Below are positions 49,413 through 55,421 of a stretch of DNA of 64,000 nt, piece after piece. The DNA comes from Nocardioides sp. zg-1308 (GTDB lineage Bacteria; Actinomycetota; Actinomycetes; Propionibacteriales; Nocardioidaceae). The DNA is taken from positions 1,798,001-1,862,000 of the forward strand of contig NZ_JABJQY010000002.1 in NCBI RefSeq assembly GCF_013155375.1, in the 5' to 3' direction. Made by a program: the position numbers and the translations under genes. The notes under the pieces are model-generated. The model saw nothing but the letters and a program-made list of their open reading frames with translations, had not been told where the DNA came from and made no database searches. Numbering within the stretch: the stretch's first letter is position 1; the number at the start of each line of letters is the position of its first letter.

Positions 49413-50303
49413 ATGGGTTCCCTGCCGAGGAGACAGCGAGTGGCGGCGTACGCCGTCATGCTCCGCGAGCGTGGAGGGCGCGTCGAGATCCTGCTCAGCC
49501 GCCTCGCGCCCCGGGTCTCGCGCGCCGAGATGTGGACGCTCCCGGGCGGCGGCGTCGACCACGGTGAGGACCCCCGTGCAGCGCTGGTGCGCGAGATCCA
49601 CGAGGAGACCGGGCTCGCCGCCGCGGTCGGTGAGACGGCCCACGTCTACAGCGCCCACATGCCTCGCGCGCCCCGCGACGGGCTGCTCGTGGACGCCCAC
49701 GCGATCCGCATCGTCTACGACGCCTGGGTCCCGCCGGACGCCCCGGCGCCCCGGGTCGTCGAGGTCGACGGGTCCACCATCGAGGCCGCCTGGCACCGGC
49801 TCGAGGACGTGGCCTCCGGCGCCGTCCCGGTCGCGACGCAGGTGACCGACGCCCTCGTCGACCACCAGCCCCACCGGCTGCAGCGCGTCGCGGCGTACGC
49901 CCTGGTCCGCCGCGGCGACGACGTGCTGCTCACCCGGCTCTCCACGCGCGCCGCGCACCCGGGGAGCTGGACGCTGCCCGGCGGTGGGGTCGACCACGGC
50001 GAGCACCCGTCCGTGGCGCTGGCCCGCGAGGTCGAGGAGGAGTGCGGCCTGCCCTGCGAGGTGACCGGGCTGCTCGGCGTCCACGACACCCACTTCGCCG
50101 GGCACGCGCCGTCGGGTCGGATCGAGGACTACCACGGCATCCACCTCGTCTACGCCGCCACGGTCGGCGAGGGCGAGCCGCACGTGCAGGAGGTCGACGG
50201 CACCACCGACGCGGTCGCATGGGTGCCGATGGCCGACATCGAGGCCGGCGCCGTCGACGTCCTCGACCTGGTCCGCTATGCCACGAGGAGCACGCATGAC
50301 TGA
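49413..50303 (+). CDS. Tandem two-domain NUDIX hydrolase
   Basis: 296 residues. Two NUDIX domains in a row, both with intact catalytic boxes: GGVDHGEDPRAALVREIHEE (about residues 48-70) and GGVDHGEHPSVALAREVEEE (about residues 190-212). The halves share the QRVAAYA start (residues 8 and 155), so a duplication within the gene is clear. Substrates of NUDIX enzymes range from oxidised nucleotides to ADP-ribose, and the sequence does not decide. Its end overlaps the following dehydrogenase by eight bases. Confidence 0.88.
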   Translation: MGSLPRRQRVAAYAVMLRERGGRVEILLSRLAPRVSRAEMWTLPGGGVDHGEDPRAALVREIHEETGLAAAVGETAHVYSAHMPRAPRDGLLVDAHAIRIVYDAWVPPDAPAPRVVEVDGSTIEAAWHRLEDVASGAVPVATQVTDALVDHQPHRLQRVAAYALVRRGDDVLLTRLSTRAAHPGSWTLPGGGVDHGEHPSVALAREVEEECGLPCEVTGLLGVHDTHFAGHAPSGRIEDYHGIHLVYAATVGEGEPHVQEVDGTTDAVAWVPMADIEAGAVDVLDLVRYATRSTHD

Positions 50304-51558
50304 GACCGTCTTCACCTACGCCGCACCCGGCCTGAAGTTCGGCCGCGGCGCCAGCGACGAGATCGGCTGGGACGTCGAGCAGCTCGTCGCCACCGCGGGC
50401 CCGGCCCGGCGGGTGCTGCTGGTCACCGACCCCGGCGTGGCGGCGACCGGCAGCCCCGACCGGGTGGCGGCGTCGATGACCGCGCGGGGCCTCGACGTCA
50501 CGGTGTTCGCCGGCGCTCGGGTCGAGCCGACGGACGCCTCGCTCGAGGAGGCCATCGCCTTCGCGCGCGACGCCGGGCCCTTCGACGCCGTCGTCGCCGT
50601 CGGCGGCGGGTCCGCGATCGACACCGCCAAGGCCGTCGACCTGCTGCTGACCAACGCCGGGTCGCTGATGGACTACGTCAACGCGCCCGTCGGCGGCGGC
50701 CGGGCCCCCGAGCACCCTCTGCTCCCGCTCGTCGCCGTCCCGACCACCACCGGCACCGGGGCGGAGTCGACGACCATCTGCGTCCTCGACGTGCTCGCGC
50801 TCAAGGTCAAGACCGGCATCTCCCACGCCCGCCTGCGGCCCACCCTGGCCGTCGTCGACCCGGACCTCACCATGACGCAGCCGGCGATGGTGACCGCCTC
50901 GTGCGGGATGGACATCCTGTGCCACGCCCTCGAGAGCTGGACCGCGCGCTGGTTCGGCGACTTCGACGCCAAGCAGCCCGAGCAGCGGGTGCCCTACTGC
51001 GGCGCCAACCCGATCGCCGACATGTGGGCGGAGAAGTCGCTGTCACTGCTCGCCGGTGCGTTCCGGACCGCGGTGCGCGACGGCAGCGACCGCGAGGCGC
51101 GCGAGCAGATGGCGCTGGCCGCCACCTTCGCCGGGCTCGGCTTCGGCAACGCCGGCGTGCACGTCCCCCACGCCTGCGCGTACCCGATCGCCGGCCGCGT
51201 CCGGGACTACCGGCCCGAGGGCTACCCGGCCGACGAGCCCATCGTCCCGCACGGCATGGCCGTCGTGATGACGGCGCCCGCAGCCTTTGCGCTCACCCAC
51301 GAGGCGTCGCCCGAGCGGCACCGACGTGCGGCCGAGCTGCTCGGCGGTGACGGCGAGCCACTCCCTGCCGTGCTGCGCGGGCTGATGCGCGACGTGGGCC
51401 TGCCGAGCGGCCTGGCCGAGCTCGGCTACGGCGGGGCCGACGTCGACGACCTGGTGGAGGGCGCGCTCAAGCAGCAGCGACTGCTCGCGACCGCCCCCAT
51501 CGCGGTCACGGCCGAGGACCTGGCGAGGGTGTTCCGGGAGTCGCTCGAGCACTGGTGA
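50296..51558 (+). CDS. Iron-containing alcohol dehydrogenase, hydroxyacid-oxoacid transhydrogenase type
   Basis: 420 residues from ATG 50296, which overlaps the NUDIX stop. NAD-binding VVAVGGGSAIDTAKAVDLLL and PTTTGTGAESTTICVLD, then metal-site residues in GMDILCHALESWTA, HVPHACAYPIAG and PIVPHGMAVVM. Length and the ETVFTYAAPGLKFGRGA start resemble ADHFE1-type transhydrogenases, which couple 4-hydroxybutyrate oxidation to 2-oxoglutarate reduction. Actual substrate is uncertain. Confidence 0.83.
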   Translation: MTETVFTYAAPGLKFGRGASDEIGWDVEQLVATAGPARRVLLVTDPGVAATGSPDRVAASMTARGLDVTVFAGARVEPTDASLEEAIAFARDAGPFDAVVAVGGGSAIDTAKAVDLLLTNAGSLMDYVNAPVGGGRAPEHPLLPLVAVPTTTGTGAESTTICVLDVLALKVKTGISHARLRPTLAVVDPDLTMTQPAMVTASCGMDILCHALESWTARWFGDFDAKQPEQRVPYCGANPIADMWAEKSLSLLAGAFRTAVRDGSDREAREQMALAATFAGLGFGNAGVHVPHACAYPIAGRVRDYRPEGYPADEPIVPHGMAVVMTAPAAFALTHEASPERHRRAAELLGGDGEPLPAVLRGLMRDVGLPSGLAELGYGGADVDDLVEGALKQQRLLATAPIAVTAEDLARVFRESLEHW

Positions 51559-51757
51559 CCCGCGCCCGCGCGGCCGTCCGAGCAGTCGATGTTCACCGCC
51601 AGGTGTACGCAAGTGCCCGGGGGGGCTTCCGTACAGGTGGAGCCGAACAACGACTGCGCCTGACAGGGCCGCTGGCGCACGGCACTCCGTCGAGACCATC
51701 CGAACCCGGCTGTGGAGGACGGCCCGTTCGCCCGCTCCGGTCCCTACCGTCGAGGAC

Positions 51758-52429
51758 ATGGAGCTCTGGACCGAGCGGCAGGCGACCAGGCACCTGATGG
51801 TGCCCGGCGTCGGTCGCGACGCAGCGCGCAGTGCCCTGAAGGCCAACGTGGCGGGACGCCCGCTGTCGGCAGGGGGCACGCTCCTGTACGACGCCCGCGC
51901 CGTGTGTGCCGTCCTCGATCGGATGGACCCGCCGTGCGAGATCCGACAGCGGACGGGACGGCCGATCTTCGTGGCGCGCGTTGCGCCACGCACCCCAGAT
52001 CCGGCGAGCTCGTGGCGGACGTGGCGCGGGGCCGACGTCCTGGCGCCACGCCCCCAGCAGCTCGACGCGGTGCGAGGGTGGTGGCACCTGGGGTTCCGGC
52101 TGGAGGCGCTCCTGCGCGGCGTGGGGCAGTACAAGGGCGTGCCCTTCGTCGCGACCTGCGGTGGGATCGTGGTGCTCGGGGCCGAGATCCGCGGCATCGA
52201 CGCCGCGCTGGCGGACGAGGGCGCGGCGCTCAGCGAGGCGCGCATCGCCTCCTCCCCGCCCGGGTCGGACTACACGCGGCGGGCCTATGCCTTCGTGCTC
52301 GGCGAGGCGGGAGCCTGGTTCGACGGCCAGCGCGGCCGGCGGTTCACGACCGGAGCAGGGGGCCCGTTCCGGCTGCTCCACGGCAGGAAGCGGGATGCCT
52401 CGACCGGGCGACCTAGGATGGAAGCATGA
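51758..52429 (+). CDS. Uncharacterised protein with an HTH-like N-terminus
   Basis: 223 residues from ATG 51758 (GAGGAC upstream). I do not recognise the family. The first 55 residues (ERQATRHLMVPGVGRDAARS, then a LLYDARAV segment) read like the HTH of excisionase/MerR-type proteins. The remainder is Arg/Gly/Trp-rich, with LDAVRGWWHLGFRLEALLRG and FVATCGGIVVLGAEIRG, and no membrane helix. It begins a chain of overlapping starts and stops: its TGA overlaps the ATG of a 27-residue gene. Confidence 0.55.
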   Translation: MELWTERQATRHLMVPGVGRDAARSALKANVAGRPLSAGGTLLYDARAVCAVLDRMDPPCEIRQRTGRPIFVARVAPRTPDPASSWRTWRGADVLAPRPQQLDAVRGWWHLGFRLEALLRGVGQYKGVPFVATCGGIVVLGAEIRGIDAALADEGAALSEARIASSPPGSDYTRRAYAFVLGEAGAWFDGQRGRRFTTGAGGPFRLLHGRKRDASTGRPRMEA

Positions 52430-52509
52430 ACCCCCGCCACCGCCGACTCGTGATCCCGGTGGCACTGGGGACGCTCATCCTCATCGTCGTCCTCGCCGCG
52501 GTCCTGTGA
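52426..52509 (+). CDS. 27-residue single-pass membrane peptide
   Basis: The frame ATG (52426) to TGA (52509) encodes a basic start (MNPRHRRL) and one hydrophobic helix (VIPVALGTLILIVVLAAVL). Its start overlaps the stop of the upstream gene (ATGA) and its stop overlaps the GTG of the methyltransferase gene (GTGA), so it fills the exact space between two coding regions. Tight coupling on both sides and a plausible membrane helix argue that it is a real small protein and not chance. Function unknown. Confidence 0.6.
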   Translation: MNPRHRRLVIPVALGTLILIVVLAAVL

Positions 52510-53753
52510 GTGCACCGGACCTCACGCACGAGCTCCGCGACAGCGCCGAGTGGTCGCGGCTGCGGGCCGCGCTGCTCGACGCCGACCAGCTCGTCCGCGG
52601 ACTGGCCAGTGGTCGGCGCAGGGGGCAGCCGGCGCCGGTGACGGGTGGCCGCGAGGTGCAGCGGCTCGAGGTCCGGGTCGTCGACCTGCGGGCCGGGCGC
52701 CACCTGCAGGTGACGTCGTACGACGCGACGCAGGCGCACACCGCCAACCACCTCCTGGGGGAGGCCGCCGAGGCGGCGGTCGACGAGCTGCTGGCGCAGC
52801 CGTTCGCCAACTGGCACGTCGAGACGGCGACCGAGACCCACCAGCTGCGGGTGACCAAGAAGGGCGTGCCGATGCTCCACACCTCGGCCCGCGCGGAGGC
52901 GGTCGAGGTGACCCGCGCCCACGACCGCGACAAGGACCGGCTGCTGCGCGGCGACGACCCGGTGCTGGTCGCCCTCGGCATCAGCGACGCCCAGGGGCGG
53001 GTGAAGCCGAGCCGGCAGGCGAAGTACCGCCAGGTGGAGGAGTTCCTCCGGCTGCTCGACGCCAGCCTGTCCGACGGCCTGGTCAAGGGTCACGTCCGCA
53101 CCCCGACGCCCGACGACCCGCTGCGGATCGTGGACCTGGGCTGCGGCAACGCCTACCTCACCTTCGCCGCGCACCAGTTCCTCACCATGCCGACCGACCG
53201 GGGCGGACGCGGCCTGCCGGTCCGGATGACCGGCGTCGACGTGAAGCAGCAGTCGGCCGACCACAACGCGTCGGTCGCGGCCGGGCTGGGGATCGAGGCG
53301 GACTTCGTCGTCGGCTCCATCGAGGACGCCCGGCTCGAGCAGGCGCCCGACGTGGTGCTCGCCCTCCACGCCTGCGACACCGCCACCGACGACGCGCTCG
53401 CCCGGGCCGTGGAGTGGGAGGCCGCGCTGGTGCTTGCGGCGCCCTGCTGCCACCACGACATCGCGGCCCAGCTCCGCAAGGCGCCCCCGCCCGCGCCGTA
53501 CGCCGCGCTGACCCGCGACGGCATCCTGCGCGAGCGGCTGGCCGACACGTTGACCGACGCGCTGCGGGCCGAGCTGCTGCGGGGGACGGGCTACCGGGTC
53601 GACGTGGTCCAGTTCGTGGAGAGCGCGCACACCCCGCGCAACACCCTCATCCGCGCGGTGCGGACCGACGGCGCTCACCGGTCCCGCGGCGAGTACGACG
53701 ACCTCGTCGCCGCCTGGGGCGTCCGCCCCCGGCTCGGCGAGCTCCTCAGCTGA
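52506..53753 (+). CDS. SAM-dependent methyltransferase (Methyltransf_32-like)
   Basis: 415 residues from GTG 52506, which overlaps the small gene stop. An N-terminal region of about 190 residues (QAKYRQVEEFLRLLDASL at its end) precedes a Rossmann fold with motif I VDLGCGNAYLTFAA, MTGVDVKQQSADHNASVAA, VLALHACDTATDDALARAV and APCCHHDIAAQL. The CCHHD motif marks a family of probable RNA or protein methyltransferases related to human GSTCD. The target is unknown. Confidence 0.82.
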   Translation: MSAPDLTHELRDSAEWSRLRAALLDADQLVRGLASGRRRGQPAPVTGGREVQRLEVRVVDLRAGRHLQVTSYDATQAHTANHLLGEAAEAAVDELLAQPFANWHVETATETHQLRVTKKGVPMLHTSARAEAVEVTRAHDRDKDRLLRGDDPVLVALGISDAQGRVKPSRQAKYRQVEEFLRLLDASLSDGLVKGHVRTPTPDDPLRIVDLGCGNAYLTFAAHQFLTMPTDRGGRGLPVRMTGVDVKQQSADHNASVAAGLGIEADFVVGSIEDARLEQAPDVVLALHACDTATDDALARAVEWEAALVLAAPCCHHDIAAQLRKAPPPAPYAALTRDGILRERLADTLTDALRAELLRGTGYRVDVVQFVESAHTPRNTLIRAVRTDGAHRSRGEYDDLVAAWGVRPRLGELLS

Positions 53754-53808
53754 TCGAGCTCCTGGGCTGATCGTGCTGCCGGCCTGACCCCGCGGCTACC
53801 GTGGGCCC

Positions 53809-54699
53809 ATGGAGGTCCGACGGGTGGCAGTGGGTGCGGTGGTCGCGCTGCCGTTCCTGCTCGGCGCCGCCGCCGGTGCGCCCGGTGCAGCCGAGGACGT
53901 CGCCTTCCGGTTCTCCGACACCGACGTGGTCGAGTCGAGCGGCCTCGTGGTGCTCGAGGGTCCTGCGGCCGGCGGCCTCGTCGTCACCACCAACGACTCC
54001 GGTGACTCCGGACGGGTGTTCGCCGTCGACCCGGACACCGGTGACACCGTGGGCGTGACCTCGTGGGCCGGCGACCCGGTCGACGTCGAGGCACTCGCCC
54101 CGGCCGGTCCCGGCCACGTCTGGGTCGGCGACATCGGCGACAACGCCCGCGCGCGCGACTCCGTCGAGGTCCTGCGCGTGCCGGTCGGCCGCGGCGACCG
54201 CAGCGTGACGCCCGAGTCGTACGAGCTGGTCTATCCCGAGGGCGCCGGCGACGCCGAGGCCCTGCTGGCGGACCCGCTGACGGGCCGCCTCCTCGTGGTC
54301 ACCAAGGGCGTCTTCGCCGGCACGGCGTACGCCGCCCCGCTCCCGCTGCGGGCCGACCGGCCCAACCGGCTCGTGGAGGTCGGCGACGCCCCGGGGCTCG
54401 TCACCGACGCCACGTTCCTGCCGGGCGGGGGTGGCGTCGTGATGCGGACCTACTCCCACGCCCACCTCGTCGCGTTCCCGTCGTGGGCGCCCGTCTCGTC
54501 ATGGGAGCTGCCGCAGCAGGACCAGGGCGAGGGCATCGCGCTGGCCGGCCGGAACCTGCTGGTCAGCACGGAGGGTGCCCGGTCGCAGGTCCTGGAGGTG
54601 GACCTGCCGCCCGCGGCCCGCACCACCGCCCTGCAGTCGCCGGCGTGGACGGCGCTGCGGTGGCTCGCGACCGCGACGGGGAGGCCGCTCCCGGCCTAG
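53809..54699 (+). CDS. Secreted protein, likely beta-propeller
   Basis: 296 residues. A signal peptide (MEVRRVAVGAVVALPFLLGAA, then an AGAPGAAEDV cleavage region) is followed by repeated beta strands with DVVESSGLVV, GRVFAVDPDTGD, GHVWVGDIGDNAR and GDAEALLADPLTGRLLVVTK. The ESSG and GD-DNA-type motifs are those of esterase-like or phytase-like propellers predicted in secreted actinobacterial proteins. No catalytic set can be named. Its stop overlaps the stop of the convergent racemase gene by four bases. Confidence 0.65.
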   Translation: MEVRRVAVGAVVALPFLLGAAAGAPGAAEDVAFRFSDTDVVESSGLVVLEGPAAGGLVVTTNDSGDSGRVFAVDPDTGDTVGVTSWAGDPVDVEALAPAGPGHVWVGDIGDNARARDSVEVLRVPVGRGDRSVTPESYELVYPEGAGDAEALLADPLTGRLLVVTKGVFAGTAYAAPLPLRADRPNRLVEVGDAPGLVTDATFLPGGGGVVMRTYSHAHLVAFPSWAPVSSWELPQQDQGEGIALAGRNLLVSTEGARSQVLEVDLPPAARTTALQSPAWTALRWLATATGRPLPA

Positions 54700-55421
54700 G
54701 CCCGGGCCTGGACCTGCGCCGAGGCAGAGGGCTCGGCGAGCGCCTCGTCGAGCGCGGCCTGGACGTGCAGCGTCGTGCACGGGAAGACGGGCAGCTCGAC
54801 GTCGGCCTGCTTGACGAGCAGCTCGAGCTCGGTGCACCCGAGCAGCACGCCGCCGGCCCCGGCGTCCCACAGCTCCTCGATGATCTCCACGACCCGGTTG
54901 CGGGTGCGGGGCAGCACGACGCCGTGGACGAGCTCCTCGTAGATCGCGTCGTTGAGGAAGTCGTGGTGGCGAGCGTCGGGGACGACGACCGAGAGGCCGT
55001 GGCCCCGCAGCCGGTCGACGAAGAACGGCTCCTGCATCGCGACCTTGGTCCCGATGAGCCCGACCGTCTCGACGCCCGCCTCACGCACCGCGGCGGCGAC
55101 GACGTCGGCGAGGTGCAGCACCGGGATGTCGACGGCCTCCTCGACCTGGTCGGCGACCTTGTGGAAGGTCGTCGTGCAGAGCAGCAGGAAGTCCGCGCCG
55201 GCCCGCTCGACGCCCCGCGCCGCCTCGGCGAGCAGCGAGCCGACCTGGTCCCAGCGCTCGTCGTCCTCGAGGTGGGTGACCTCGGCGAAGTCGACCGTCG
55301 TCAGGGCAAGCCTGGGGGAGGAGAGCCCGCCGAGGCGCTCGCGCATCCCGAGGTTGAGGTCGCGGTAGTAGACCGCGCTGCTCTCCCAGCTCATGCCGCC
55401 GACGAGTCCGATGGTCTTCAC
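54696..55421 (-). CDS. Aspartate/glutamate racemase family protein
   Basis: 241 residues from GTG 55421; the upstream frame is not conserved. N-terminal KTIGLVGGMSWESSAVYYRDLN is diagnostic of aspartate racemase-like proteins. The two catalytic cysteines lie in FLLLCTTTFHKVAD (first, about residue 85) and GGVLLGCTELELL (second, about residue 195). It interconverts amino-acid enantiomers, probably aspartate. It may be co-transcribed with the short-chain dehydrogenase gene, whose stop is 21 bp upstream. Confidence 0.9.
   Translation of the reverse strand: MKTIGLVGGMSWESSAVYYRDLNLGMRERLGGLSSPRLALTTVDFAEVTHLEDDERWDQVGSLLAEAARGVERAGADFLLLCTTTFHKVADQVEEAVDIPVLHLADVVAAAVREAGVETVGLIGTKVAMQEPFFVDRLRGHGLSVVVPDARHHDFLNDAIYEELVHGVVLPRTRNRVVEIIEELWDAGAGGVLLGCTELELLVKQADVELPVFPCTTLHVQAALDEALAEPSASAQVQARA

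Follow-up and report, generated by a model that had tools for sequence, protein, structure and literature searches.

Between an upstream reading frame and a methyltransferase gene on the plus strand of the window (the whole stretch of 64,000 nucleotides analysed here) lies a frame of 27 codons, which begins with the ATG at 52426, ends with the TGA at 52509 and would encode the peptide MNPRHRRLVIPVALGTLILIVVLAAVL. Is so short a frame a gene and, if it is, what might its product do? A preliminary description of this DNA had reported the frame at exactly these positions, with a basic N-terminus, a single hydrophobic helix and start/stop overlaps at both ends, and all of this was recovered from the sequence and the list of open reading frames (ORFs). 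The ATGA at 52426-52429 contains the stop codon of an upstream ORF of 223 aa (51758-52429, plus strand), and the GTGA at 52506-52509 contains the start codon of the downstream methyltransferase gene (52506-53753, plus strand; PF13679, Methyltransf_32, Pfam E-value 5.5e-30), whose translation could thereby be coupled to that of the peptide. The codons for the basic residues NPRHRR (residues 2-7, the best conserved part in the alignments A1, A2 and A4 described below) occupy positions 52429-52446 and those for the helix (residues 8-27) positions 52447-52506, with a maximum Kyte-Doolittle mean of 3.02 over 15 residues.

We compared the frame with every ORF of 20-40 aa on the plus strand of the window, 202 in all, and with shuffled versions of the DNA. 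RTGA overlaps at both ends were found for 14 of the 202 ORFs, against a mean of 25.4 after dinucleotide shuffling; because shuffled DNA yields more such ORFs, the double overlap is no evidence by itself, and we rejected it as an argument for a gene. Two features set the 27-aa frame apart: a strongly hydrophobic stretch (shuffled mean 0.0) and a TANNNT sequence 6-7 nt ahead of its start codon (shuffled mean 0.4), each of which was seen in no other ORF of the 202.

Conservation of the frame in relatives, which the preliminary description had proposed as a check, was found throughout the genus. The methyltransferase is present in 35 of 37 genus genomes, including that of the window, and all 35 carry an intact frame of 27 aa (15 genomes), 28 aa (18) or 29 aa (2) directly upstream of it, in 35 distinct DNA sequences with no frameshift; the DNA pattern of the peptide had no match in the two genus genomes without the methyltransferase. 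The genus peptides follow the pattern [M/V]NPRHRRLVIP and then the helix, two of them starting with TP or SP, and residues M1, P3, R6 and R7 are invariant in an alignment of 27 of them (A1). Differences at the first, second and third codon positions of the 35 sequences numbered 3793, 1570 and 6820, and pN/pS was 0.41 in the coding frame; reading these columns in the +1 and +2 frames gave 1.11 and 2.88. This substitution pattern indicates that purifying selection acts on the coding frame, and together with the conservation it indicates that the 27-residue frame is a real, conserved gene selected at the protein level. A raw pN/pS near 0.4 is moderate, and we counted it against our best explanation.

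The overlaps themselves fared unevenly across the same 35 loci. The frame had been described as locked between two genes: the downstream half of that statement held, with methyltransferase start and peptide stop sharing 4 or 1 nt at 22 of 35 loci and standing 7-49 nt apart at the other 13, but the upstream half did not, since a 4-nt overlap with the preceding gene occurred in only 8 of 35 loci and with unrelated genes. An upstream ORF was called at 28 of the 35 loci; these neighbours fell into 8 groups, the largest of which (12 members) is not related to the upstream ORF of the window. This ORF had been labelled HTH-like, a label we dropped, as it returned no Pfam match at an E-value of 0.01; an overlap with this particular gene was seen only in the window genome and in one distant copy (L010). 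Its relatives are patchy (62-71% identity in L062 and L079, 28-34% in L010, L053 and L080), and we rejected it as a partner of the peptide because few relatives have it and other genes occupy its place. Two side observations concern the upstream region. At 12 of the 35 genus loci (L011, L013, L017-L021, L023, L024, L027, L032 and L034), a protein of 410-455 aa, whose N-terminus is cysteine-rich and by eye iron-sulphur-like, ends at or adjoining the start of the peptide. In the window, a gene for a protein with two NUDIX stretches (49413-50303) overlaps the first part of the gene for an iron-type alcohol dehydrogenase (50278-51558).

To follow the peptide beyond the genus we used three profiles, built from the 27 genus peptides (A1), from 23 diverse peptides (A2) and from 46 peptides (A4). 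In the taxonomic family, A1 matched 287 of 294 genomes at an E-value of 0.1, covering 26 of 26 genera (260 of 262 genomes among those of good quality), and in the class it gave weaker matches that were themselves frames of 26-31 aa. A2 matched 262 of 394 class genomes at an E-value of 0.05 and A4 matched 238 of 394 at 0.001, in 77 of 137 genera, counts that are partly self-fulfilling for the lineages whose members had entered A2 and A4 in earlier rounds. Nearly all class genomes matched had a single A4 match; the 156 of 394 class genomes with no A4 match included all listed genomes of lineages f7, f6 and f21. The distant family f22, which has large genomes, was missed at first, and a seed of its own then found a frame of the 28-aa type in 19 of 19 f22 genomes tested. 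As a control, we searched 396 genomes spread over the phylum, of which three had a match outside the class, all of them partial, inside frames of 305-807 aa and chance-like. Selection in distant lineages resembled that in the genus, with a pN/pS of 0.43 for f22 (19 sequences) and 0.37 for f29 (12 sequences). Conservation reached at least 90% at P3, R6 and R7 in the A2 alignment and at R6 in A4. The window peptide fits the resulting family profile, which describes peptides of 26-31 aa with the motif M-x-P-R-x-R-R, a single helix and L14, scoring E-values of 8.4e-15 with A1 and 1.3e-9 with A4, in both of which it is itself a row. The preliminary description had seen the frame correctly and missed its class-wide spread. 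We consider it probable, by a modest margin of confidence, that the gene encodes a core membrane miniprotein, present in single copy and passed on vertically from the ancestor of the class, kept even in genomes of 1.2-1.5 Mb, mostly leaderless and un-annotated.

The TANNNT sequence ahead of the frame is a putative -10 promoter box, TAGGAT (52414-52419, plus strand), which sits 6 nt ahead of the start codon, within the last codons of the upstream ORF. Of the 35 genus loci, 34 have a TANNNT exactly 6 or 7 nt ahead of the start codon (shuffled mean 0.5, maximum 4); in the one remaining locus it stands 17 nt ahead. For distant lineages we hand-picked loci from the match list for family spread and left out 24 loci from L103 on, as repeats or family members, before counting neighbours and TANNNT boxes. 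The box was found at a spacer of 5-9 nt in 40 of 61 distant loci (shuffled mean 2.7, maximum 9) and was missing at that spacing from the other 21; in f22 it stands at 6 or 7 nt in 19 of 19 genomes. In the f29 loci that were read the box is missing, and in f29 (11 genomes) the gene follows another gene, which gives it a leadered or operonic look. We also scanned named genome contigs for the box followed by 5-9 free bases and R/ATG-[ND]PRTRR, which yielded 25 stretches with spacers of 6 nt (10), 7 nt (9) and 8 nt (6), and none at the permitted 5 or 9 nt. Most of these stretches belong to actinobacterial MAGs and one to Microlunatus kandeliicorticis; the pattern also matched contigs with archaeal titles (L203, L225) and an Acidobacteria MAG (L220), likely by chance or through misbinned contigs. 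A scan of 51500-54900 for consensus sigma-70 promoters, which requires a -35 box, and for terminators returned nothing.

Start-site mapping in M. tuberculosis, as reported in PMC3898074, places TANNNT centred 7-12 bp ahead of most primary starts, and from this and the spacing of the box we predict that transcription starts at or adjoining the A of the ATG at 52426, which would make the mRNA leaderless. In mycobacteria, leaderless initiation is reported to depend on a 5'-terminal ATG or GTG and to need nothing else (PMC4633059). Judged by its spacing in relatives, it is the -10 box, which the preliminary description had missed, and not the upstream overlap that fixes the peptide start, and we infer that the peptide mRNA is leaderless in most lineages.

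What the peptide may do was approached through its neighbours. We called a neighbour only when its ORF had matches in at least two other loci and assigned gene names by Pfam. Clustering of the ORFs within 3 kb of the peptide at 62 distant loci brought out one recurrent set of genes: DUF3027 (32 loci), a class-V aminotransferase (32), two MFS types (29 and 29), DUF2530 (24), a propeller-like protein (20), a cold-shock protein (20), MarR (15), a LigT-like RNA ligase (14), an aldo/keto reductase and the methyltransferase. In the window, the methyltransferase and then the propeller gene follow the peptide gene, and a search for seven other neighbour types of the class-wide block found no match there. 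In most f22 loci the peptide stands between the LigT-like gene and a convergent aldo/keto reductase gene, and in f29, whose genomes measure 1.2-2.2 Mb, it comes after one MFS gene and ends against another, convergent one. No single neighbour is kept in all lineages. The methyltransferase was rejected as an obligate partner: it gave one match (G109) in 20 other genomes, while the peptide motif is present in 12 of these (all g26), and in other families the peptide occurs with no methyltransferase nearby.

The best lead to a partner, where it is present, is the propeller-like protein, a predicted secreted product of the third gene (53809-54699, plus strand) with a weak match to PF13449 (E-value 0.0059, below its cut-off); we found no PDB relatives for it or for the methyltransferase. 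The peptide could be dedicated to this protein as a membrane anchor, export aid or regulator, a reading that we consider unlikely, though less so than the other rivals. The propeller-like protein is conserved, occurs with the peptide in many families, and its gene lies downstream of the peptide on the same strand wherever it was called. The start of the propeller gene in f37 and f2 lies 1 nt past the peptide stop (L110, L125) or at -4 nt (L118, L174); the comparison took in one rival start per ORF, and in it distances at starts far upstream carry no meaning. In g26 the peptide motif forms the N-terminus of the propeller protein itself, with a fused match in 12 of 12 genomes tested, none of which yielded a methyltransferase. 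In one genome of the window's own genus (G035, 98% complete) all three genes, those for peptide, methyltransferase and propeller, are missing, which looks like the loss of a whole block. Against a dedicated partnership, the fused form carries AxA-like motifs after the helix (L092, L094, L095, L097, L101, L102, L104, L107), and having acquired them it may be merely a signal peptide; in g26 the small gene may have turned into a signal sequence or an anchor. The propeller was found in 28 of 52 genomes with the peptide and in 2 of 14 without it, yet was absent at an E-value of 1e-6 from 24 of the 52, among them 11 of 11 from f29, 2 of 2 from f42 and 3 of 3 from f8. We therefore rejected it as an obligate partner and regard it as a frequent companion that is not required or universal.

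Less likely still, and in our judgement doubtful, is that the gene acts only in cis, as a leader that loads ribosomes on a leaderless mRNA and hands them over at the RTGA, the peptide itself having no job. In mycobacteria, RTGA-coupled small ORFs are reported to be over-represented, and leaderless RTG small ORFs coupled in this way are described as experimentally known (PMC4633059). The overlap with the methyltransferase in most genus loci would suit such a role, as would the like overlap that joins the peptide to the propeller gene in f37 and f2. A leader would not account for an amino-acid sequence kept across the class with differing downstream genes or none. Moreover, the nearest called downstream gene within 150 nt is convergent in 29 of 61 distant loci, including those of f29 and most of f22, co-directional in 11 and not called in 21; with a convergent next gene in so many loci and similar purifying selection, a pure leader role is insufficient, and we favour a peptide that acts in trans.

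Type I toxins are likewise small, basic and hydrophobic, and the peptide could by its look be a toxin of this kind that damages membranes. We hold this to be very improbable given a single copy in nearly every class genome, a stable place and purifying selection; a scan of 51500-54900 returned no antisense RNA or Rfam match, a result that extends to antitoxins of known families. That the frame arose by chance in GC-rich DNA, in which double RTGA overlaps are common without selection, can practically be dismissed, being refuted by the family-wide presence, the pN/pS and codon-position bias in the genus and the class-wide spread.

The reading we prefer, and to which we give somewhat better than even chances, is that the small gene is a single-copy, class-wide gene for a predicted single-pass membrane miniprotein of 26-31 aa, leaderless and trans-acting, likely a docking subunit. 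Transcription would begin at the start codon, set by the -10 box, and ribosomes would initiate on the terminal ATG or GTG of the leaderless mRNA. The peptide would insert in the membrane as a single pass, its basic N-terminus facing the cytoplasm. In this genus, a ribosome ending at the TGA at 52507-52509 could restart at the GTG at 52506, and peptide and methyltransferase might thereby be made together. In trans, the peptide may serve as an accessory or tethering subunit whose conserved PRxRR end docks a larger protein at the membrane; this docking role of the M-x-P-R-x-R-R end is suggested by form and by the analogy to known miniproteins.

The expectation that annotation programs would overlook the frame was borne out, as the window peptide matches neither Pfam nor NCBIfam models. 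The best E-values among the 23 A2 members were 0.0076 (Pfam) and 0.023 (NCBIfam), with unrelated names and curated cut-offs not reached, and among PDB chains the sole match for the peptide was LptC at an E-value of 0.83. In the literature searched we found no paper printing the strings MDPRTRR, MNPRTRR, MSPRTRR, MNPRHRR or MTPRTRR and none on the peptide family in titles or the starts of abstracts; a listing in an earlier supplement or in sORFdb is possible. If our reading is correct, the miniprotein is among the most widely kept proteins of unknown function in the class. A gene of about 80 nt that is under selection in most lineages of a class so important to medicine and industry, and that matched no curated family searched here, points to an unknown membrane function and illustrates that length cut-offs still hide conserved genes.

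Among known systems, the leaderless RTGA small proteins of mycobacteria (Shell et al., 2015, PMC4633059) are alike in being un-annotated small ORFs whose GTG or ATG start codon is predicted to form the 5' end of the mRNA and which have a 4-nt RTGA link; as described there, that set differs in consisting mostly of upstream ORFs beside particular genes and in being backed by footprint data. The family reported here is class-wide, of membrane type, often without a downstream partner and predicted from sequence, and it had no match in f7 genomes. Prli42 of Listeria, reportedly a membrane miniprotein of 31 aa with a link to the stressosome, is likewise a very short conserved single-helix membrane protein that was overlooked by annotation and for which membrane docking is proposed; it belongs to another phylum, there is no stressosome link here, and the likeness is one of form only. 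CydX and KdpF, small accessory subunits of membrane complexes, share the length of about 30 residues and the one helix, but are encoded in an operon with their complex, whereas the present family has no universal neighbour. The kind, a conserved small membrane protein made from a leaderless mRNA, is known, and the family appears to be new.
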